From: Candidatus Zambryskiibacteriota bacterium | GTDB taxonomy: Bacteria; Patescibacteriota; Minisyncoccia; Phycocordibacterales; DATDWN01 | Reading direction: 5' to 3' | DNA: 48,330 nucleotides | NCBI GenBank assembly: GCA_023267045.1 | Contig: JAHFOB010000006.1 | Location: forward strand, 1 to 48,330 | Shown here: in pieces, positions 2,175-32,263 of the stretch | Numbering within the stretch: the stretch's first letter is position 1 | Layout: each line of letters opens with the position of its first letter | Translations under genes and position numbers: made by a program | The notes under the pieces: model-generated | Database searches by the model: none | Told to the model about the DNA's origin: nothing | Seen by the model: only the letters and a program-made list of their open reading frames with translations

Positions 2175-3452
2175 TTATATACTTGGAAAATATGCTAGTG
2201 GATCAAGATAGGCTTTTATATCTGCTAGTGGAAGCGTGGCCTCTTTACATCCCCTACTATTTACATATTTTTCTATTCGAACTCCTTGGGTGGCATAGAC
2301 ACTTATATGTAAATGAGGGCCAGTGGAGTATCCAGTGTTTCCGCTGTAACCTATTGTGTCGCCTGTAGCCAAAATATCTCCAGTTGAGACGCTTATAACA
2401 GAAAGATGGCCGTATATGGTAGATAAGCCGTTATCGTGCTTGACCATAACCCATTTACCAAATGAATAGCATCCTGGATATGTATCTGTATTTCCCGTTC
2501 CAACAACAGTTCCATCCAAAACATTTTTCACTTTTGTTCCGACACTTGCTCGAAAATCTACTCCGTTATGCGAACCTGAAACATAAAGTTTCTCCGCGCC
2601 GACAGTTTTTCCAAACTTTTGGGTAATATAAACACTATCAAGTGGCCATGCCAAGATACCATTTTGTGGTTTTGGATAGCTATTTTTATCTATTAAATAG
2701 TTCAGCTGTGATTCATAATCAAAAACTTCTTTTTCAAATTGAGCTTTTTGCTCCTCTTTTGTTTTAACTAGATCCTTAAAGGCCTGTTCTTTATTTTTTG
2801 TTTGAGTCAAAATGTTAGATTTTTCGGCCGTTGTATACTCTACAGCCTGTTTTTGACCACTTAAATCTTGTTTTAAGTTAACTAGACTTTTTTTCTGGCC
2901 AGTTAATGAAGATTGCTTGGTCTGCATATCTGACTTCATTATCGTCAATTCATTACTTTTATCCCTAATCGTTCTCTGGACTTGTTTTATATTGTCCATA
3001 TCGCTCCAAACCTCGCCTATGTTTTTACTGGACAATATCATTTCCATAATTCCAGCTTCTTCCAGCGATTGAATATTTTTCAGTGCATTAATAATTGCTC
3101 TTTTGTTTAGGTCAATGTGATCTTCAGTTTTACTTATCTCTTTAGTTAACTGCTGTATAGTCAAGTTTGTTTTTACAATTTTATTCTCAGTCAGACTAAT
3201 ATCTGTGGTTATTTTTTTCTTAGTCAAATCCAAAGTTTTTATGGTGTTCTGTAGAGTTTTGGCCTGATTTCCAGCATTTGTAACTTCGACGTTGTACTGA
3301 TTAATTTCTTGTTCGAGTTGTTTTATTTGGTTGTTCCGCTCATCTATTTTAGCTTTTAGATCATCTGTTGTTGTAGCTTCATCTGCAAAAACAACACTAG
3401 ACAGTGACAGAAGAAGAATTATTAAAAATATGTATTTTAGTTTCCATTTCAT
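2175..3452 (-). CDS. Secreted M23 (LytM/EnvC-type) peptidase with coiled coil
   Basis: Predicted extracytoplasmic murein endopeptidase, or an activator of one, 425 aa. Signal peptide at residues 1-23 (hydrophobic core IFLIILLLSLSSVVFA), then a long coiled coil at about 27-245 as in EnvC/PcsB-type proteins. The C-terminal M23 domain (about 265-400) keeps the zinc ligands: H295 and D299 (HNGVD), H349 (YGHL) and H380/H382 (HLH). Retention of all of these suggests a catalytically competent enzyme rather than a degenerate EnvC. The start ATG (3450-3452) is part of the palindromic element at 3451-3557, with GGG directly abutting the ATG and no separate ribosome-binding site. Last large gene of the leftward envelope cluster. 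Confidence 0.93.
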   Translation of the reverse strand: MKWKLKYIFLIILLLSLSSVVFADEATTTDDLKAKIDERNNQIKQLEQEINQYNVEVTNAGNQAKTLQNTIKTLDLTKKKITTDISLTENKIVKTNLTIQQLTKEISKTEDHIDLNKRAIINALKNIQSLEEAGIMEMILSSKNIGEVWSDMDNIKQVQRTIRDKSNELTIMKSDMQTKQSSLTGQKKSLVNLKQDLSGQKQAVEYTTAEKSNILTQTKNKEQAFKDLVKTKEEQKAQFEKEVFDYESQLNYLIDKNSYPKPQNGILAWPLDSVYITQKFGKTVGAEKLYVSGSHNGVDFRASVGTKVKNVLDGTVVGTGNTDTYPGCYSFGKWVMVKHDNGLSTIYGHLSVISVSTGDILATGDTIGYSGNTGYSTGPHLHISVYATQGVRIEKYVNSRGCKEATLPLADIKAYLDPLAYFPSI

Positions 3453-18081: not shown

Positions 18082-19896
18082 TTGAAAAAGTTCTTGAGAG
18101 ATTTATGGAAAGTATACAGCCCCTTGAAATGGGCAGTGTCTGGTGTGTTCGGCTTCATTGCTGTAAACCAGATCCTGAATCTTGGTGGGCCGTTCCTCAT
18201 GAGTAAACTTATCGACCAGCTGTCTAAAAAACAGATGGGCATGAGTTTCTACCTCTTTGTTGTAAGTCTTATCACCCTCTGGATCTTTCGTGTCACGGCC
18301 TTCCGGCTATGGCGCGAACGCTATGAGCTTGAAAAGCTCGATGGTGCAATCCCTGAGCGGATGCAGGAATACACGATGCAGAAGTTGTTCGGTTTTTCAA
18401 TCGGACAGCATACGAGTGAAAATTCTGGTATCAAGCAGAGCGTCATCAACCGCGGCGAAAACGCCTTGGAAAACATGATGCAGTTACTTGTCTACCAAGC
18501 GCTTCCACTCGTAGTAGAAATTATGATTCTAACTGGCGTGCTTCTCTATTGGGCACCTCAGATCGGACTAATTGTACTGGTAAGTCTTGTGACCTGCCTC
18601 ATCTTCATATGGAGACTTAATGGTTCGTTCCGTAGCGACTTCAAACAGATCGAACATTTAAACATTCAAGATTCCAAGCTGAAGGGAGAGATCATCCGTA
18701 ATATTGGGATGATCATGGTGCAAGCGCAGGAGGAACGAGCTACAGACGAATGTCACGACAGCCAGGAGAAAGCGTACACCTTTACAAAAAATGTATGGTT
18801 GCGATTTCTAAACTGGGCGGCGTTGCGGGACTCGATTCCGCAGATCGCCCGGCTCATTGTTGTGATCTACGCTTCAAACCAAGTCATGAGTGGTAAATAC
18901 ACTCTTGGTGAATGGGTCATGTTCACAACGTGGACATCAAACGCGTTGGGTAATCTAGGTGAAATGAGCGGATTGCATCGACAAATCATCCGTGCATACA
19001 CTTCAATTAGGAAATACTTTGACATGCTTTCCATTGAGCCTGATGTGAAGGTTATCGATAATCCGGTTCGACCTGAAAAATATATTGGCAGAATCGAATT
19101 CGAAAACGTCACATTCAAGTATCAAGGAAGAGAGAAAGCGGAATCGAGTGAGGATGAAGAAGATGAGGATGCGCCTAAAAATGAACCTTCAAAACCAGTT
19201 GGTCCTGCCCTCGATGGTGTTAGTTTTACTATCGAAGCAGGAAAGACTGTGGCGTTTGTCGGAGCATCCGGCGCAGGCAAGTCAACACTCATCAAGGCAC
19301 TTGTCCGAGGACAGGATCCTGTCGGAGGCCGTATCAAAATAGACGGCAACGACTTGCGCACACTCGACCTCAAGCACTTCCGTAGTTCGATCGGTATCGT
19401 CGATCAGGACGTTTCGCTTTTTGATCAATCGCTCCGCTACAACATAACGTACGGACTGAATGGCAAAGGGTCGCTTGTCACTGACCACGAACTCCGCACA
19501 ATTGCAGAACTTTCGCGAATCGACCGATTTTGGGATCGACTAGAAAACGGATTCGATACCATTATCGGCGAACGTGGAGTAAAGCTTTCTGGTGGAGAAC
19601 GTCAGCGGGTCGGGATTGCTCGAGCTCTTGTGAAAGAGCCTGACATCCTGATCTTCGATGAAGCAACGAGCAATCTCGATTCAGAGAACGAAGCAATGAT
19701 CCGTGAAGCGATCGAGATGGTGAGCAAAGGTAGGACGACGATTATTATCGCCCACCGATTCAGCACCATCAAGAGCGTCGACAAGATCTTTGTTTTTGAC
19801 AAGGGTAAACTCGTCGGAGAAGGTAGCCACACTGAACTTGCTCAGACGTGCGAGTACTACCAGCGTCTCGTCAAGAATCAGCAATACATGCTGTAA
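18082..19896 (+). CDS. ABC exporter, fused permease/ATPase, G+C-rich
   Basis: Type I half-exporter, 604 aa. TTG start with GGAGGAG upstream. Membrane domain at about 1-320, then the ATPase with Walker A GASGAGKST, a canonical signature LSGGERQRVGIARAL, Walker B LIFDEATSNLD and the H-loop AHRFST. Between the domains is an acidic, Glu/Asp-rich insertion (residues about 353-372, AESSEDEEDEDAP). Codon use differs sharply from the other ABC exporter 1 kb away: sampled lines are well over half G+C. It forms its own transcription unit with a strong promoter and terminator, which argues for transfer or special expression. Substrate unknown. Export of a peptide such as the graspetide encoded at 25365 is possible but unsupported by proximity. 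Confidence 0.9.
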   Translation: MKKFLRDLWKVYSPLKWAVSGVFGFIAVNQILNLGGPFLMSKLIDQLSKKQMGMSFYLFVVSLITLWIFRVTAFRLWRERYELEKLDGAIPERMQEYTMQKLFGFSIGQHTSENSGIKQSVINRGENALENMMQLLVYQALPLVVEIMILTGVLLYWAPQIGLIVLVSLVTCLIFIWRLNGSFRSDFKQIEHLNIQDSKLKGEIIRNIGMIMVQAQEERATDECHDSQEKAYTFTKNVWLRFLNWAALRDSIPQIARLIVVIYASNQVMSGKYTLGEWVMFTTWTSNALGNLGEMSGLHRQIIRAYTSIRKYFDMLSIEPDVKVIDNPVRPEKYIGRIEFENVTFKYQGREKAESSEDEEDEDAPKNEPSKPVGPALDGVSFTIEAGKTVAFVGASGAGKSTLIKALVRGQDPVGGRIKIDGNDLRTLDLKHFRSSIGIVDQDVSLFDQSLRYNITYGLNGKGSLVTDHELRTIAELSRIDRFWDRLENGFDTIIGERGVKLSGGERQRVGIARALVKEPDILIFDEATSNLDSENEAMIREAIEMVSKGRTTIIIAHRFSTIKSVDKIFVFDKGKLVGEGSHTELAQTCEYYQRLVKNQQYML

Positions 19897-24759: not shown

Positions 24760-25281
24760 TTAATTTGATTTTTCAATTTTATCAATTGAATCCTGAAGTA
24801 ATTTTGCATAAACCTCAATAGGTTCTAGTCCTACTGAAATCCGTAATTTATCAACATTTTTCAGATTTTTTATTGGTTTTGGAATAAGCTTCCCATTTAT
24901 CTTGTCTTTATAAAATTGTGTACCATATTTTTGTTTTTTACCTTCATTTACAAGTATCCTGTCTTCAAGGAATGGGACTAATTTTTTGTCTATTTGACCT
25001 TCTTTAACCATTTGCTTCATTAACTTTAAGCACTCTTTTTGAAACATTAGATCATGATCTGAATGTTGAACAATAAGCCATGCGCCAGAAGAAATTTCCT
25101 GACCAAAGTCATTTTTCTTTGGCCAACCAACTTGATTTATAATTTTTTTGAGTTTCAAAGAATTAGCCCTATCGAATTTAGCATCAAGTTTATTCGTGTA
25201 CCTCAAAGATTGGTCTTTATTGACCATTTCTAAAATTTCTTTTTTAATTCTATTTATTAAATTTTTATCTAGTCGCATCAA
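24760..25281 (-). CDS. DUF6624-like protein
   Basis: 173 aa, soluble. It contains IINQVGWPKKNDFGQEISSG, AWLIVQHSDHDLMFQKECL, LEDRILVNEGKKQKYGTQF and a C-terminal helical tail. These conserved blocks (GWP, AWL-VQH-D, DR, Q-YGTQ) match the DUF6624 family as I recall it. Function unknown. The start may be the second Met. Lies beyond the terminator of the graspetide-like unit. Confidence 0.7.
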   Translation of the reverse strand: MMRLDKNLINRIKKEILEMVNKDQSLRYTNKLDAKFDRANSLKLKKIINQVGWPKKNDFGQEISSGAWLIVQHSDHDLMFQKECLKLMKQMVKEGQIDKKLVPFLEDRILVNEGKKQKYGTQFYKDKINGKLIPKPIKNLKNVDKLRISVGLEPIEVYAKLLQDSIDKIEKSN

Positions 25282-25300: not shown

Positions 25301-25336
25301 GAAAAGGGAGCTGAGAACCGGACGGTCTCAACTCCC
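25301..25336 (-). terminator. Terminator of the graspetide-like unit
   Basis: On the plus strand, GGGAGCTGAGA (25306-25316) pairs with TCTCAACTCCC (25326-25336) with one wobble pair. The minus-strand transcript then runs into TTTTC. It closes the two-gene unit of ATP-grasp ligase and precursor. Confidence 0.85.
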
Positions 25337-25364
25337 TCAAAAAGAACCTGTGGTAACTTCACCG

Positions 25365-25562
25365 CTAACCTCCGGTGTCGTAACCACCATTGACACCCGT
25401 CATGCTTTCTTCCCCGCTGAAGGAAGTTGACATTTCGAGCGCCATTTTGTCTGAATTCACCGGCTCGCCGAAGGCGAAGGTGATCGGTAGCAACGGAACT
25501 TCTTCTGGCGGGAAGTATGTCTTCTCGCCGTTTGACAGCGACGCAGCAATCTGAGGGTTCAT
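25365..25562 (-). CDS. Putative graspetide (ATP-grasp RiPP) precursor peptide, 65 aa
   Basis: Starts 27 bases after the ATP-grasp gene stops. The ATG at 25562 follows a strong Shine-Dalgarno GGAGGAG. An in-frame GTG at 25577 lies within that site and is rejected. The peptide has a leader MNPQIAASLSNGEKTYFPPE, then PLLPITFAFGEPVNS, where PITFAFGE resembles the PFFARFLE recognition helix of microviridin leaders. A C-terminal core rich in Ser/Thr next to acidic residues follows (STSFSGEES at 45-53, then GVNGGYDTGG to the end). T46, S47 or S49 with E51/E52 are candidate ester-forming pairs. G+C is clearly above that of neighbouring genes. The link to the ligase is strong by position; the ring pattern is inference. 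Confidence 0.72.
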   Translation of the reverse strand: MNPQIAASLSNGEKTYFPPEEVPLLPITFAFGEPVNSDKMALEMSTSFSGEESMTGVNGGYDTGG

Positions 25563-25589
25563 GGACTTCTCCTCCACTTGATGAGTATA

Positions 25590-26594
25590 TCACCTCTCTT
25601 GCTGTGAATCAACCGCACTATCCACACCTCCAACGACAATGAGTCTTGCCAGCTCTCTACCAATAGGCATATCAGTCAAACGTTCAATCCATAACCATTG
25701 CCCATTTGGATTGATTTCAAGGAAAACGAATTCTCCTTTAGGTGTTACTATCATGTCAACGCAGCCAAAAACCAAACCTAAAGACTTTGTAAACGTGATC
25801 AGTTTTTGATGAATTTCTTGAGGCAACTCAAAAACTGAGTGTGGTGTGTTAGCGATATCATACCGACGCCAATCTTCCATCGCTTTTTTAGACTTCTGGG
25901 AGTGTATGGCGCAAGCGAAGGTACTATTACCAACGACAGTTACTCGAAGTTCAAAATCTTTTTCGACGTATGGCTGAAGAATCACTGGACAATTCTGAGC
26001 TCTTTCAACTAAGTTGATAATGTCACTTCTCGACACTTTTCTCGTGTAAAGAATTAAGCGATCGTTTTCAGTGTCACTTGAAATCTGAACGGCTGGCATG
26101 AAAATCGATTTCACTGCTAAATAATCGTACCTATAAGCAAAGTCTCGCATCTGTGCTGGTGAGTTTCCAATGTAGGTGTCTGGTACGCTGAGTCCAGATT
26201 CCGATGCTACTCGAAGTTGGTGAGTTTTCATCGATCCACTTTTCAATGCCTCAGGATGATTAATCCAAAAAGCATTAACCAGGTAAGGTAAAGAATCGAA
26301 GAAGGATTGTGATTCTTTATCTATGTATTCCCTTACGTGAGGATCTTGCACTTTATGGACGGTAGGAGGAGTCCTTCTGTTCCATACTGAACTTATATCC
26401 TTTCCTTCCAACGACACGCCACCAATTTCTAACAACAAGATGTTGCGGTTTTTAGTAGATGTCGAGAATGAGATTGATTCCTCTGTCGGGAATCGAGTGG
26501 TATTCATCGTTACCGTTTCCACCCCCATTCCATCAAGAATATTCTTGACATACTTGTAGTGAGCATCACTTTGATCAGACAGTAATAGAATCAT
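25590..26594 (-). CDS. ATP-grasp ligase, MvdC/MvdD (graspetide maturase) type
   Basis: 334 aa. Predicted to form side-chain ester or amide rings in a ribosomal peptide using ATP. The N-terminal domain starts MILLLSDQSDAHYKYV and contains SVWNRRTPP. The ATP-grasp core has LQPYVEKDFELRVTVVGN, GCVDMIVTPKGEFVFLEINPNGQW and LWIERLTDMPIGRELARLI. The EINPNGQWLWIE segment with a following T-x-x-P-I is the mark of the MvdC/MvdD group rather than of RimK or glutathione synthase. ATG at 26594 with AAAGGA 7 bases upstream. The TTG at 26609 is rejected. The Shine-Dalgarno lies in a hairpin GTTCTTTGAAAGGAAC, so initiation may be modulated. First gene of the unit. Confidence 0.87.
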   Translation of the reverse strand: MILLLSDQSDAHYKYVKNILDGMGVETVTMNTTRFPTEESISFSTSTKNRNILLLEIGGVSLEGKDISSVWNRRTPPTVHKVQDPHVREYIDKESQSFFDSLPYLVNAFWINHPEALKSGSMKTHQLRVASESGLSVPDTYIGNSPAQMRDFAYRYDYLAVKSIFMPAVQISSDTENDRLILYTRKVSRSDIINLVERAQNCPVILQPYVEKDFELRVTVVGNSTFACAIHSQKSKKAMEDWRRYDIANTPHSVFELPQEIHQKLITFTKSLGLVFGCVDMIVTPKGEFVFLEINPNGQWLWIERLTDMPIGRELARLIVVGGVDSAVDSQQER

Positions 26595-26627
26595 GTTCGT
26601 TCCTTTCAAAGAACGTGTTTTGAAGCA

Positions 26628-26656
26628 ACTATATGTAAAATTTTTTTAGTTGTCAA
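26628..26656 (-). promoter_or_regulatory. Promoter of the graspetide-like unit
   Basis: Minus strand: -35 TTGACA (26656-26651), a 17-base spacer, and -10 TATAGT (26633-26628). The leader then contains the hairpin that includes the ribosome-binding site of the ligase gene. Confidence 0.8.
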
Positions 26657-26663
26657 TATATCG

Positions 26664-27260
26664 TTAATAAATTTCTTTCCTGAGAAATCTTGGGAAATAT
26701 ATAAGAACCGTTACGGTTAAAGTCAAAATCACCATGTAAACAGGATATCCGGCGTTACTAAAATCCCATTTTTCTACAGCAAAAAGATTTGCAAAGTTGC
26801 TTATAAAACCAATTAACCAAGCTGGACCGTAATCTGCAGATGAATCTATGTAAACTGTCATAATTAAAGGGATAGCTCCTATAGCATCTATTAGCATTGT
26901 GAGAGATAAAGCTACGATAGGAGAGTTAAAAATAATACGGAGAATAACCGTAATAAAAACACCAACTAGAGCTATTTTTTCAACCCATGTCCATTCTCCA
27001 CTTTTTGCGTATTTTAAAAGCGCAATAAAAGTCAGGGCTGTTCCAAAAAAATAAGCAACGCTAACCCAAATACTACTGACTAATCCAACAGTTTGATAAT
27101 AATAAATACAAATAAGAAAAGTGACTAAAGTCCAAATACCCCATGTCACTCTGTTTGAATGAACTTTTCCTTGTATAATTGCCCTAAGATAGACAATTGC
27201 AGCAATTATTGTCACAATCCCGCTCATATAACCAGTTATTATTTTAAAAAGTGGTTCCAT
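26664..27260 (-). CDS. Polytopic membrane protein (198 aa), possibly PQ-loop-like
   Basis: Six or seven hydrophobic helices. The N-terminal block TIIAAIVYLRAIIQGKVHSN followed by RVTWGIWTLVTF has the look of a family widespread in this phylum. A second half with DAIGAIPLIMTVYIDSSADY may be a degenerate repeat of the first, as in PQ-loop transporters, though the PQ pair itself is missing. A truncated paralogue lies just upstream at 27378. Upstream of the graspetide unit but separated from it by that unit's promoter. Confidence 0.65.
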   Translation of the reverse strand: MEPLFKIITGYMSGIVTIIAAIVYLRAIIQGKVHSNRVTWGIWTLVTFLICIYYYQTVGLVSSIWVSVAYFFGTALTFIALLKYAKSGEWTWVEKIALVGVFITVILRIIFNSPIVALSLTMLIDAIGAIPLIMTVYIDSSADYGPAWLIGFISNFANLFAVEKWDFSNAGYPVYMVILTLTVTVLIYFPRFLRKEIY

Positions 27261-27377
27261 TTAATTTTTAATATAAATTTTCTGACAAATATCTTGTGCC
27301 TCTTTTTATAAAATTGGATTACCGTATATTTTTAAAATTCCATCCCCTTATTTTAGACCAGCTCTCTGGAGAAGAAC

Positions 27378-27515
27378 TCATGATACCATGGCGACGGTCA
27401 CCCAGGTCATTCTATTTGACTTTGTTGTGCCTTTGATGATTGCTCTGCAATACCAAGCATATGCGACAAAAACTAGAATCCCCGTTAATATTCCAAATAT
27501 GTTCTGGAAATCCAT
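27378..27515 (-). pseudogene. Truncated paralogue of the 198-aa membrane protein
   Basis: A 45-codon frame starting MDFQNIFGILTGILVFVAYA and continuing WYCRAIIKGTTKSNRMTW before TGA. It aligns with residues 13-46 of the neighbour (GIVTIIAAIVYLRAIIQGKVHSN then RVTWGIWTLVT): Gly-Ile, Tyr-x-x-x-x-Ile-x-x-Gly, Ser-Asn-Arg and Thr-Trp are shared. The rest of the gene is not visible in the 117 bases downstream, so this is probably the stub left by duplication and deletion. A genuine single-helix peptide is the alternative. Confidence 0.55.
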
Positions 27516-28378: not shown

Positions 28379-31300
28379 TTAATAATTAATCTTAATTTCA
28401 TTCCCTCCTGTCTCAACCTTTACTACAACAAACCCTTGTCGAATAATGCTAGTATTTGTACCATTTTTTAATTTTTCTCTGATTGTTGTCGTATTCGTAA
28501 CTTTTTTATAATTAAACACAAACATTTCTACACCTTTTATTGTTACATTTGTATCAAGATCTGTAAGAACCCCATTTTTCTCTGCCCAATTATATTGTAC
28601 ATTAGTATTTGGAAAAGTAGTAGATAGTTCATTGCGTATAATAGTATTAAATGAAAGCTTCAGTCTCGTTGGTTTTTCTTTGTACCTAGTATAATTAAGT
28701 ACCGATTTATTACCTTGATAATCTACTGCGATAGTACTAGCAATTGAGTGAGTTAGTGTTACTGGCGAAGTATCAATACCTGAAAACATTACTTCTCTAG
28801 TTGAAGTTGAGAAAGAAATAGATATTTCTGGTGGGGTTACATCATATACCGTAATCCCACCTGGAGCAGCTTTTAATATTTTATCTACAGTTTGATCTCC
28901 ATTTTGATCAATATTGAGAGTCGAGCTTGCAACATCAAGACTTGAACCGATATTCATAGTCACAACAGTTGAAGCAGATGATGGAATCCCCTGAAAAGAA
29001 GTTGACTGTGTAATTGTATTTCCTTCTTGTTTATCAATATCTAGAGAAAAATTCCCATCTTGGTATCCTTTTAATTTAAGAATGTGAACTATGCCCTCGG
29101 GAATCGATAAAAATTGTACATCACCTATTTGTCTATATGTAACACCGGGAATTTCTTCTCTGATTTGTCTTGTTGTGGGATCCTGACCTGTATATCTGTT
29201 TTGCGAGTCTGTGACGCCGAGAGTCAGTGGTGAGTGGAGAGTGTAGTGGAGATGTGGAGCATCAGAACTTGAATTTGGTGCATTATTAACCAATATATTA
29301 TTTGGGTCAATGAATGTAGAACTGATAATTTCAGATTTAATAAAATCTGAAAGATTTGATATTTCAAGTATATCTCTATGCTTTCTAGAAATATGAAGAC
29401 TGAATAATCTATTATATTTTGATAAATCCACCCACCATCTTTCCACATTCGGTGTTGATGTTGACATCCACAAAGCACTTGGTACAACCACTGTACCATC
29501 ACCATCTACAACCATTCGAGGTGTATATGAAAGATAATCGGTATGAGGAGAAAACCCTGCATAAGTTTTGTAATCTAATCCTGCGAGAGTTTCTTCCCCC
29601 CACCCTGCCACTTGTATCACTTTTGTTGTCTGTGATGGTTGCCAAGAGTCAAGATATTGATGAACAGTTTCTGCCTGTGAATAAAGAAAAGAGTTGCCAA
29701 TATTAGGTTGAATAGTGTCATTGTATGCTGGCTTAGATCTACCATCTGTTCCTAAAACATAATTTTTCAGTTCTGTTGGGTTTGAAACAAACAAACCGTA
29801 TTGCGATGTCTGTGGACTAAAAAAAGGTTTGTTCTCAAAAGAAAACACTTTATCAACAGCAAAAGCTGGGTCAATTGTAGTAAAATAACCAGAGGACGGA
29901 AGTAAGTTGTAAATACTTGGCATATTTTCAGAAAGTTGTCGTGATCTTTGGTCATACATGATGGTTCCATAGCTAAGACTTTCTCCATGTAGTAATTCAG
30001 CCATAGCATCAGGTGTACCGACCTGTGGGACAGCTATAAATATTATTTTGTCTATTTTATCGTAAAGTGGATTGTTTGTATCTTTTAATTTTTGGATCAA
30101 AGCTTTTACGACTAATCCTCCGTTTGAATGAGCAATGATTGTGACCTTTTTTGATTTTGAACTTTTCTGCAGTTCTTCTAATTTTTTCAAAATAAAAGAT
30201 TCAGAAAAATCCTGTGTTTGAGTATATGACAGTTTATTACCAGTTGTAGTTGCACCGTTTGTAATAATATCATTCAAAGAAAGTCTCCAATCATATGGTA
30301 TGAACGCATAATCTTTTATAGTCCCATCATTCTTCCAATTTTTAAGATCAGTTATGAAAGACTGATAAATGTTAAAACTATAAACATCATCAACAATTCC
30401 AGTCTCATCTAATTCTCCATTATTTTGCGTGTCATCTTTTGTGTAAATATCATTTATACTTTTACCTTGAATATCTAGTGCCAGATCAGCTTGTTTTGAA
30501 TCACTTGATGACACCCACAACTCCTCACCTGATTGATATAACCTTGAACCCATTATCCCAGGTATAAACAACACATTTGAAAAACAGTCAGTGGTACAAA
30601 CTGGAGTAGGTGTATATTGTTCCATGACCACTGTTCCATTTTCGCCCAGACGTGGACATCCGTAGTAACAAAACAAACCGCCGAGAGATTCTGCACCACC
30701 GCTGAAAGTAGAATTTTGGTAATAAATAGCCACGCGACCTCCACCACCCGAACCAAAACAAACATTCGGACAATAATTCTGACCACCGTTCGCGTGAAAA
30801 GCCCCTGCGCCGATCAGATTATTTGCTGTTACATAAATACTTCCACCACTTGATGTACTGCCACCATCAGCCGATATTGTGCCATCGTTTGAAAGAGTAC
30901 CTGTAACCAAAAGACGAATTGCTCCCCCGCCGTGTGGATGATAACCGTTTCCGCTACTGCCAAAATCTACTGGTTCTGTAGACGAACCGTACGTTGACGA
31001 AGGAATGTTAAGATAACCCGCTCCACCATAACTTGCACCGGCAAAATACAGCGCATCTCCGACAGGCGCTCCTGGCCCCACGCCATTGCTATATCCTTTT
31101 TCGTCTGCGTTTATAAATGATCCCGACTCAACTGTAAGATTTTTTACTTTTAGATATAATATTTTTTGCGGTGAAGCCACTATGCCAGAATTTTCGGTCA
31201 AATTTATTGTCTCGGCATTTAGAGCTCCACTTCCTGAAAGAGTTGCACTGGATCCGTTACTAATATTAATAATCGGAATATTAATCAATTCATTATCGGC

Positions 31301-32263
31301 AATATCTAGAACTGACACATTGTCTAAAACTAAATCGTTTGCTGTAATAGTAGCTCCATCTTCTGCTTTTACTTTAGCACTGTTTTTTAAAACAATATGA
31401 TTGAAGTGAAAAGGTCCGTCATTTTTTAAAAATCGCCAAGATGTGTTCGTCCAAAAATTATTATTTAAAATATCAAAAAATCCAACTGTCCCACTATCAG
31501 AACAGGTCAACGAGAAACCGTCATAGCTACCACAACCCCCTCTGGCCACAACTTCTCCTGTAAATGAAAATGATTTGTAATATACAGCCACTCGCCCACC
31601 ACCACCGAGGCTAGCAAAATAACCCGTAATAAAAATCCCTCCTCCATTTGCTTGGAAAACTCCACTACCAGCTAATATATTTGTATTTATTAAAATACTG
31701 CCACCACTACCGGAGCTTCTTCCACTGGCAGATATTGAGCCATTGTTTGAAAGTGTGTTTGATATGACAAACTCAATCGCTCCCCCGCCACTATCACCAC
31801 TACCACTACCCAAATCCCTAGGATAAGTAGCCGAGCCATAAGTAGATGTAGCGATATTGGAGTCACCCACTCCGCCATAACTTGCACCGGCAAAATAAAG
31901 ATTGGTAGGAGGAGTACCGGGACCAATAAAATAACCTCTTCCATTAGCAGAAATCGACGAACCAGATTCTACCGTCAAATTTGTAGCGTTAATTTTTACG
32001 CCTTTGAAAGAATTAAGAGAACCTGGATCTCCTAGGAGTGTAAGTGTGGAGCCGTTTGTTATTGTCAGATTTTGGAAAAAATATTCACCGGCAGGTAAAG
32101 AAATGTTTGAATCAACAAAAATTTGCGACTCATCTTTATCCAAAATACTATTTCCATTTATATCAAGTGGGTTAAAGTCGGCGCTAACATAGCCCGTACC
32201 TCCAAAAAACATAACCAGTGAGAAAAAAGTTAAAAATAGGCCGTTTCGGCTGGTTAATTTCAT
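28379..32263 (-). CDS. Giant secreted LCAT-like alpha/beta hydrolase with duplicated glycine-rich module
   Basis: 1294 aa. Signal peptide 1-28, then a short calcium-loop-like DINGNSILDKDES. Next come two copies of a glycine/serine-rich, probably beta-helical module (about 97-245 and 378-535), both containing YFAGASYGG, GGGAI, GGSI and a GGGGRVA-YY motif. A lecithin:cholesterol-acyltransferase-like lipase domain follows from about 562: VLFIPGIMGSRL, IPYDWRLSL, nucleophile elbow AHSNGG (S713), DGDGTVV (D922) and KHRDIL (H962), a complete plausible triad. The C-terminal 300 residues are beta-rich and end in a basic strand. It probably binds or acts on lipids at the cell surface or on a host. It is the largest gene here. 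Confidence 0.85.
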   Translation of the reverse strand: MKLTSRNGLFLTFFSLVMFFGGTGYVSADFNPLDINGNSILDKDESQIFVDSNISLPAGEYFFQNLTITNGSTLTLLGDPGSLNSFKGVKINATNLTVESGSSISANGRGYFIGPGTPPTNLYFAGASYGGVGDSNIATSTYGSATYPRDLGSGSGDSGGGAIEFVISNTLSNNGSISASGRSSGSGGSILINTNILAGSGVFQANGGGIFITGYFASLGGGGRVAVYYKSFSFTGEVVARGGCGSYDGFSLTCSDSGTVGFFDILNNNFWTNTSWRFLKNDGPFHFNHIVLKNSAKVKAEDGATITANDLVLDNVSVLDIADNELINIPIINISNGSSATLSGSGALNAETINLTENSGIVASPQKILYLKVKNLTVESGSFINADEKGYSNGVGPGAPVGDALYFAGASYGGAGYLNIPSSTYGSSTEPVDFGSSGNGYHPHGGGAIRLLVTGTLSNDGTISADGGSTSSGGSIYVTANNLIGAGAFHANGGQNYCPNVCFGSGGGGRVAIYYQNSTFSGGAESLGGLFCYYGCPRLGENGTVVMEQYTPTPVCTTDCFSNVLFIPGIMGSRLYQSGEELWVSSSDSKQADLALDIQGKSINDIYTKDDTQNNGELDETGIVDDVYSFNIYQSFITDLKNWKNDGTIKDYAFIPYDWRLSLNDIITNGATTTGNKLSYTQTQDFSESFILKKLEELQKSSKSKKVTIIAHSNGGLVVKALIQKLKDTNNPLYDKIDKIIFIAVPQVGTPDAMAELLHGESLSYGTIMYDQRSRQLSENMPSIYNLLPSSGYFTTIDPAFAVDKVFSFENKPFFSPQTSQYGLFVSNPTELKNYVLGTDGRSKPAYNDTIQPNIGNSFLYSQAETVHQYLDSWQPSQTTKVIQVAGWGEETLAGLDYKTYAGFSPHTDYLSYTPRMVVDGDGTVVVPSALWMSTSTPNVERWWVDLSKYNRLFSLHISRKHRDILEISNLSDFIKSEIISSTFIDPNNILVNNAPNSSSDAPHLHYTLHSPLTLGVTDSQNRYTGQDPTTRQIREEIPGVTYRQIGDVQFLSIPEGIVHILKLKGYQDGNFSLDIDKQEGNTITQSTSFQGIPSSASTVVTMNIGSSLDVASSTLNIDQNGDQTVDKILKAAPGGITVYDVTPPEISISFSTSTREVMFSGIDTSPVTLTHSIASTIAVDYQGNKSVLNYTRYKEKPTRLKLSFNTIIRNELSTTFPNTNVQYNWAEKNGVLTDLDTNVTIKGVEMFVFNYKKVTNTTTIREKLKNGTNTSIIRQGFVVVKVETGGNEIKINY

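Follow-up and report, generated by a model that had tools for sequence, protein, structure and literature searches.

Graspetide ligases bind the leader of a precursor peptide, phosphorylate carboxylates and form esters between these and hydroxyls (PMC13097080). For CPR bacteria such peptides were described by Makarova et al. 2022, Yanofskybacteria among them (PMC8939145), so the surprise of an earlier note on our locus at peptide products in CPR genomes is overtaken by the text of that study. The CPR branches 1 and 2 set out there combine CPR synthetases with small precursors that carry a Pro-hydrophobic leader motif; branch 1 cores have the signature TxxxTx(6-10)Dx(1-4)D, which Yanofskybacteria cores reportedly lack (PMC8939145). 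In the same text, which also treats the role of the leader motif, ligases are seen as keeping the leader and tolerating changing cores, and an uncharacterised CPR graspetide-associated family (cluster 23) has conserved His and Arg (PMC8939145). The survey of Carter et al. 2026 finds DUF6624 to be highly frequent in graspetide groups 18, 20, 23 and 42, suggests that it is an undiscovered enzyme class and describes many candidate-phyla members in group 42 (PMC13097080).

Here we analyzed a contig of 48,330 nucleotides (the whole stretch is called the window below) from a Candidatus Zambryskiibacteriota bacterium, in which a minus-strand ligase gene is followed after a 27-base gap by a precursor gene (Table 1). 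This layout is a direct reading of the sequence and agrees with the earlier note, which had placed the same two genes there and had seen a good ribosome-binding site before the 65-aa peptide. Based on this gene pair, the family and fold of the ligase, the homology of the precursor and the linkage to a DUF6624 gene, we consider it highly probable that these genes form a minimal locus for graspetide biosynthesis, where the ligase would staple the precursor core and DUF6624 would be an accessory.

Table 1. Features of the putative graspetide locus in the window.
Feature	Position	Strand	Details and basis
Graspetide synthetase gene	25590..26594	-	334 aa + stop (25593-26594 without stop); ATG at 26594, alternative TTG start at 26609; stop codon ends at 25590; Pfam, NCBIfam, AlphaFold/Foldseek
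Graspetide precursor gene	25365..25562	-	65 aa + stop; ATG at 25562, stop codon ends at 25365; homologues beside orthologous ligases, leave-one-out profile
DUF6624 gene, probable cluster accessory	24760..25278	-	172 aa; PF20329 1.4e-22; beyond terminator
Promoter-like site TTGACA-17-TATAGT, upstream of ligase	26628..26656	-	11/12 consensus matches
Intrinsic terminator hairpin after precursor gene, then TTTT	25303..25338 (about)	-	MFE, shuffles
Precursor ribosome-binding site, GGAGGAG region	25567..25576	-	direct sequence reading

The three genes span about 1.8 kb. A single promoter and a single terminator had been proposed to enclose exactly the ligase and precursor genes. The terminator stands, with a hairpin of -24.2 kcal/mol (z = -4.4) whose stability was equaled by 0 of 200 shuffles. 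The promoter-like site is only suggestive because a scan of the region around the locus found 6 sites against 4.0 expected, a count not above chance. No Rfam families were found in a search across the window. Upstream of the ligase, 26664-27260 and 27375-27515 (minus strand) encode neighboring small multi-pass membrane proteins that belong to one family, of which the latter is short and has a stop codon within the match. Further on, 28379-32263 (minus strand) encodes a putative secreted protein of 1294 aa in which glycine-rich segments recur and which has an LCAT/serine-esterase-like domain (PF02450 3e-13).

A genome search with the ligase found its closest relatives, at 44-47% identity, in a Parcubacteria GW2011 genome (L003), a Yanofskybacteria genome (L004) and a bin (L005). 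Each of these loci has a frame of 55-62 aa that aligns to the window peptide and either adjoins the ligase or lies one gene off. When a leave-one-out profile built from these three peptides alone was run on 1345 window frames, it matched the window precursor at E = 1.8e-16 with a runner-up at 0.026, which rules out a chance frame. The earlier note had proposed looking for conserved precursor-like frames beside orthologous ligases, and since three CPR-type genomes carry such a homologue, the comparison of sequences leads us to regard the 65-aa peptide gene as real. Viral contigs gave ligase matches, and no precursor relatives were found in them. GC content is 0.41 for the ligase gene, 0.535 for the precursor gene, 0.285 for DUF6624 and 0.37 for the window; as the ligase value lies inside the window's spread (z 0.9) and high precursor GC is seen again in L004 and L005, we do not conclude a recent transfer from GC.

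The microviridin-like leader motif PITFAFGE that had been pointed out in the window peptide (residues 26-33; Pro followed by hydrophobic residues) is indeed there, and the form P[LI]xFxFGE is conserved in all four precursors. At this site the strict published leader pattern Phhx(1,2)h fits two of the four and misses the window and L004 leaders because T comes next there. The predicted core covers about residues 43-65 and includes STSFSGEES as well as the motif TSFSGEESMTGVNGGYDT (46-63), which across the precursors (n = 4 sequences) takes the form [ST]xFxGEESx(5-14)YD[ST]. Three Ser/Thr and three Asp/Glu positions with ring-forming potential are thereby common to all four, namely the hydroxyls of T46, S53 and T63 and the carboxylates of E51, E52 and D62 (window numbering), with T46 and T63 exchanging solely with Ser. 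The linker between leader and core varies, and a variable linker between invariant leader and core residues is what one would expect to see in a graspetide precursor.

Compared with the characterized systems, the locus resembles microviridins in a leader with a Pro followed by hydrophobic residues and in its ligase, the nearest solved structures being MdnC and MdnB at about 28% identity. Microviridin biosynthesis uses two ligases, whereas the window has one, with neither an acetyltransferase nor a transporter beside it; the TxKxPSD core is missing and the ligase scores below the MvdC and MvdD cut-offs, which leaves the locus outside group 1. The earlier note was therefore right that the core is not of microviridin type, but less so in seeing no match to the plesiocin pattern: STSFSGEE has the plesiocin spacing [ST][ST]xxxxEE with Ser for the first Thr. 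The plesiocin core repeats TTxxxxEE, whereas the window core is single and matches the relaxed pattern once, so that it falls outside group 2 as well, and the relatives of the window peptide keep one hydroxyl of [ST][ST] and have an additional conserved Ser and the YD[ST] segment. The plesiocin synthetase PsnB shares the ATP-grasp synthetase fold and is, at about 19% identity, the most distant solved relative of the ligase.

With branches 1 and 2, as described by Makarova et al. for CPR bacteria, the locus shares a CPR synthetase and a small precursor, its leader motif resembles the Pro-hydrophobic one, and Yanofskybacteria occur in those branches just as L004 is a Yanofskybacteria genome (PMC8939145). 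The branch 1 signature TxxxTx(6-10)Dx(1-4)D is absent from the window core, as it reportedly is from the deviating Yanofskybacteria cores, so both may belong to one family, compared by description; the text of that paper does not contain the window core string (PMC8939145). Groups 18, 20, 23 and 42 of Carter et al. resemble the window in combining ligase, precursor and DUF6624 in a locus, and group 42 also in its candidate-phyla setting; a core consensus for group 42 does not appear in the text of that survey (PMC13097080). Our best reading of the locus is thus a graspetide cluster of an already known kind whose core type is uncharacterized and might be new.

The earlier note had described a unit of two genes and missed DUF6624, which adjoins the precursor in all four loci; because of this adjacency, the functional unit is probably larger than ligase and precursor and includes DUF6624 as a probable accessory protein. 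In L003 DUF6624 nearly abuts the ligase gene (DUF6624 ends at 3074, the ligase starts at 3076), and in L005 the DUF6624-like gene shows weak similarity under the Pfam cut-off. By our own count, in which some loci end at contig edges, DUF6624 lies near the ligase in 14 of 24 CPR ligase loci, including distant ones such as L029, L066, L126 and L127. That ligase and precursor suffice for the product, with an unrelated DUF6624 merely nearby, would fit the strong terminator that splits DUF6624 from the precursor in the window, its GC content unlike that of the other two genes and its solitary occurrence in same-genus genomes. We nevertheless consider this unlikely given the precursor-adjacent DUF6624 of all three relatives, its position against the L003 ligase, the 14 of 24 loci and the enrichment of DUF6624 in published graspetide groups (PMC13097080). 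The link is not exclusive, since some same-genus genomes in which this ligase was not detected have a solitary DUF6624; in the genome of the window no second DUF6624 gene was found. The predicted structure of its product (pLDDT 92.5) matched no PDB fold below E 0.5, and the His/Arg family of cluster 23 in the text of Makarova et al. is possibly the same as DUF6624 (PMC8939145). In another CPR genome two DUF6624 genes in opposite orientation lie beside one graspetide ligase (L127:4901-5899), and in a same-genus genome where the window-type ligase was not found DUF6624 is part of a 340-aa protein (L118:1980-3002, minus strand).

The family to which the locus belongs is rare, with one carrier among 397 sampled genomes of the order and three among 384 of the class, and the orders to which two other carriers belong yielded no further members. 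A search of 11 same-genus genomes, not all of them complete, likewise gave no window-type ligase. Such a patchy distribution is compatible with transfer and with loss and does not discriminate between them. The absence from these 11 genomes, together with the loss of the final core Asp of L003, L004 and L005 (Gly-Gly in the window) and a genome (94.6% complete) in which no Peptidase_C39 was found anywhere, could also suggest a decaying locus whose ligase and precursor no longer function in this lineage. We think this very improbable, since the frames, ribosome-binding site and terminator are intact and the window keeps every invariant residue of leader and core as well as the invariant catalytic ones.

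In a tree of 67 ligases computed with a quick method, the window and its three relatives group together (support 90), and the ligase of a Vampirovibrio bin (L016) is the sister of this group (SH-aLRT 98). The genus Vampirovibrio has a known predator among its members. Upstream of the L016 ligase lies a 60-aa frame (L016:3714-3896, plus strand; MKIPSM...GEKPLTFAG...STTTNTDSGSWEDD) that is likely a precursor, its leader segment PLTFAG being related to that of the window and its core STTTNTDSGSWEDD unrelated, which fits the published view of a fixed leader and changing cores (PMC8939145); no DUF6624 was seen within the available stretch of L016. Gene order varies too: L003 has its precursor first and the ligase after, so the order of the window, which the earlier note reported correctly as ligase before precursor, is no special trait. 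About 0.75 kb downstream of its DUF6624-like gene, L005 encodes a radical SAM/SPASM protein (L005:2708-3964, plus strand), possibly an extra tailoring enzyme.

The ligase itself combines an MvdD-type pre-ATP-grasp domain (PF21068, 3.6e-10) with a RimK-like ATP-grasp domain, both over the Pfam cut-off, and contains the motif EINPNGQW. Its best NCBIfam matches are graspetide maturases (MvdC TIGR04185 4e-64, SAV_5884 family TIGR04187 5e-61, MvdD 2e-53; RimK 3e-12), all under their curated cut-offs (e.g., 217 vs 425 bits). A PDB profile search with the four closest ligases returned only six distinct graspetide synthetases at E<=1e-10, and Foldseek with the AlphaFold model (pLDDT 90.3) filled its first 32 places with MdnC (bound to MdnA), CdnC, AMdnB, PruB, MdnB and PsnB, ahead of LysX and RimK. 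The residues K162, R217, D280, E293 and N295 expected for ATP-grasp catalysis are invariant among 27 relatives. The assignment to the MvdC/MvdD type in the earlier note thus holds at the level of the family: sequence and predicted fold identify a graspetide synthetase, which we place outside the curated subfamilies because it scores under every named graspetide maturase cut-off. By profiles, PDB search and Foldseek it groups with neither RimK nor D-Ala ligases, and a RimK/LysX-type enzyme that adds glutamate or other amino acids to a small protein without forming rings, to which the shared ATP-grasp fold and the weak RimK match might point, can be dismissed as hardly credible given a RimK profile about 50 orders of magnitude weaker, RimK and LysX structures ranking after every graspetide synthetase, the MvdD-type N-terminal domain and a precursor homologue beside the ligase in four loci.

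For the graspetide locus that we propose, leader binding and ester chemistry are carried over from the family. The ligase would bind the precursor leader at P[LI]xFxFGE and, with ATP, phosphorylate core Asp/Glu side chains, upon which Ser/Thr hydroxyls would attack the activated carboxylates to give up to three omega-ester rings in [ST]xFxGEES...YD[ST]; in the window, the conserved hydroxyls and carboxylates named above are the candidates. Ring pattern, the role of DUF6624, export and target are guesses: the likeliest outline may be a plesiocin-like turn of T46 with E51 or E52 and a second ring between GEES and the C-terminal YDT, and DUF6624, which other graspetide loci also have, might act as a partner or in tailoring or processing. 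That [ST]xFxGEESx(5-14)YD[ST] is a new core type with a new ring pattern that needs DUF6624 as partner or tailoring enzyme in CPR is a possibility that we raise tentatively. The locus contains no protease or dedicated exporter. An ABC exporter-like protein at 18082-19896 (plus strand) was considered for the latter and not established in this role; it lacks a C39 domain and lies 5.7 kb off on the other strand. Its GC content is 0.47 against 0.37 for the window, and same-genus matches mostly cover its ATPase part.

Four natural homologues with a common core and a DUF6624 neighbor, in a system of three genes small enough for expression in E. coli, bear on the question of a DUF6624 requirement that was left by the 2026 graspetide survey (PMC13097080). 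The family is rare, and its peptide sequence has been retained in at least four lineages that are far apart. Most biosynthesis has been lost from CPR bacteria, and the source bacterium is tiny and probably host-dependent; that some CPR bacteria still have a peptide-stapling locus points to a product used in contact with hosts or rivals.
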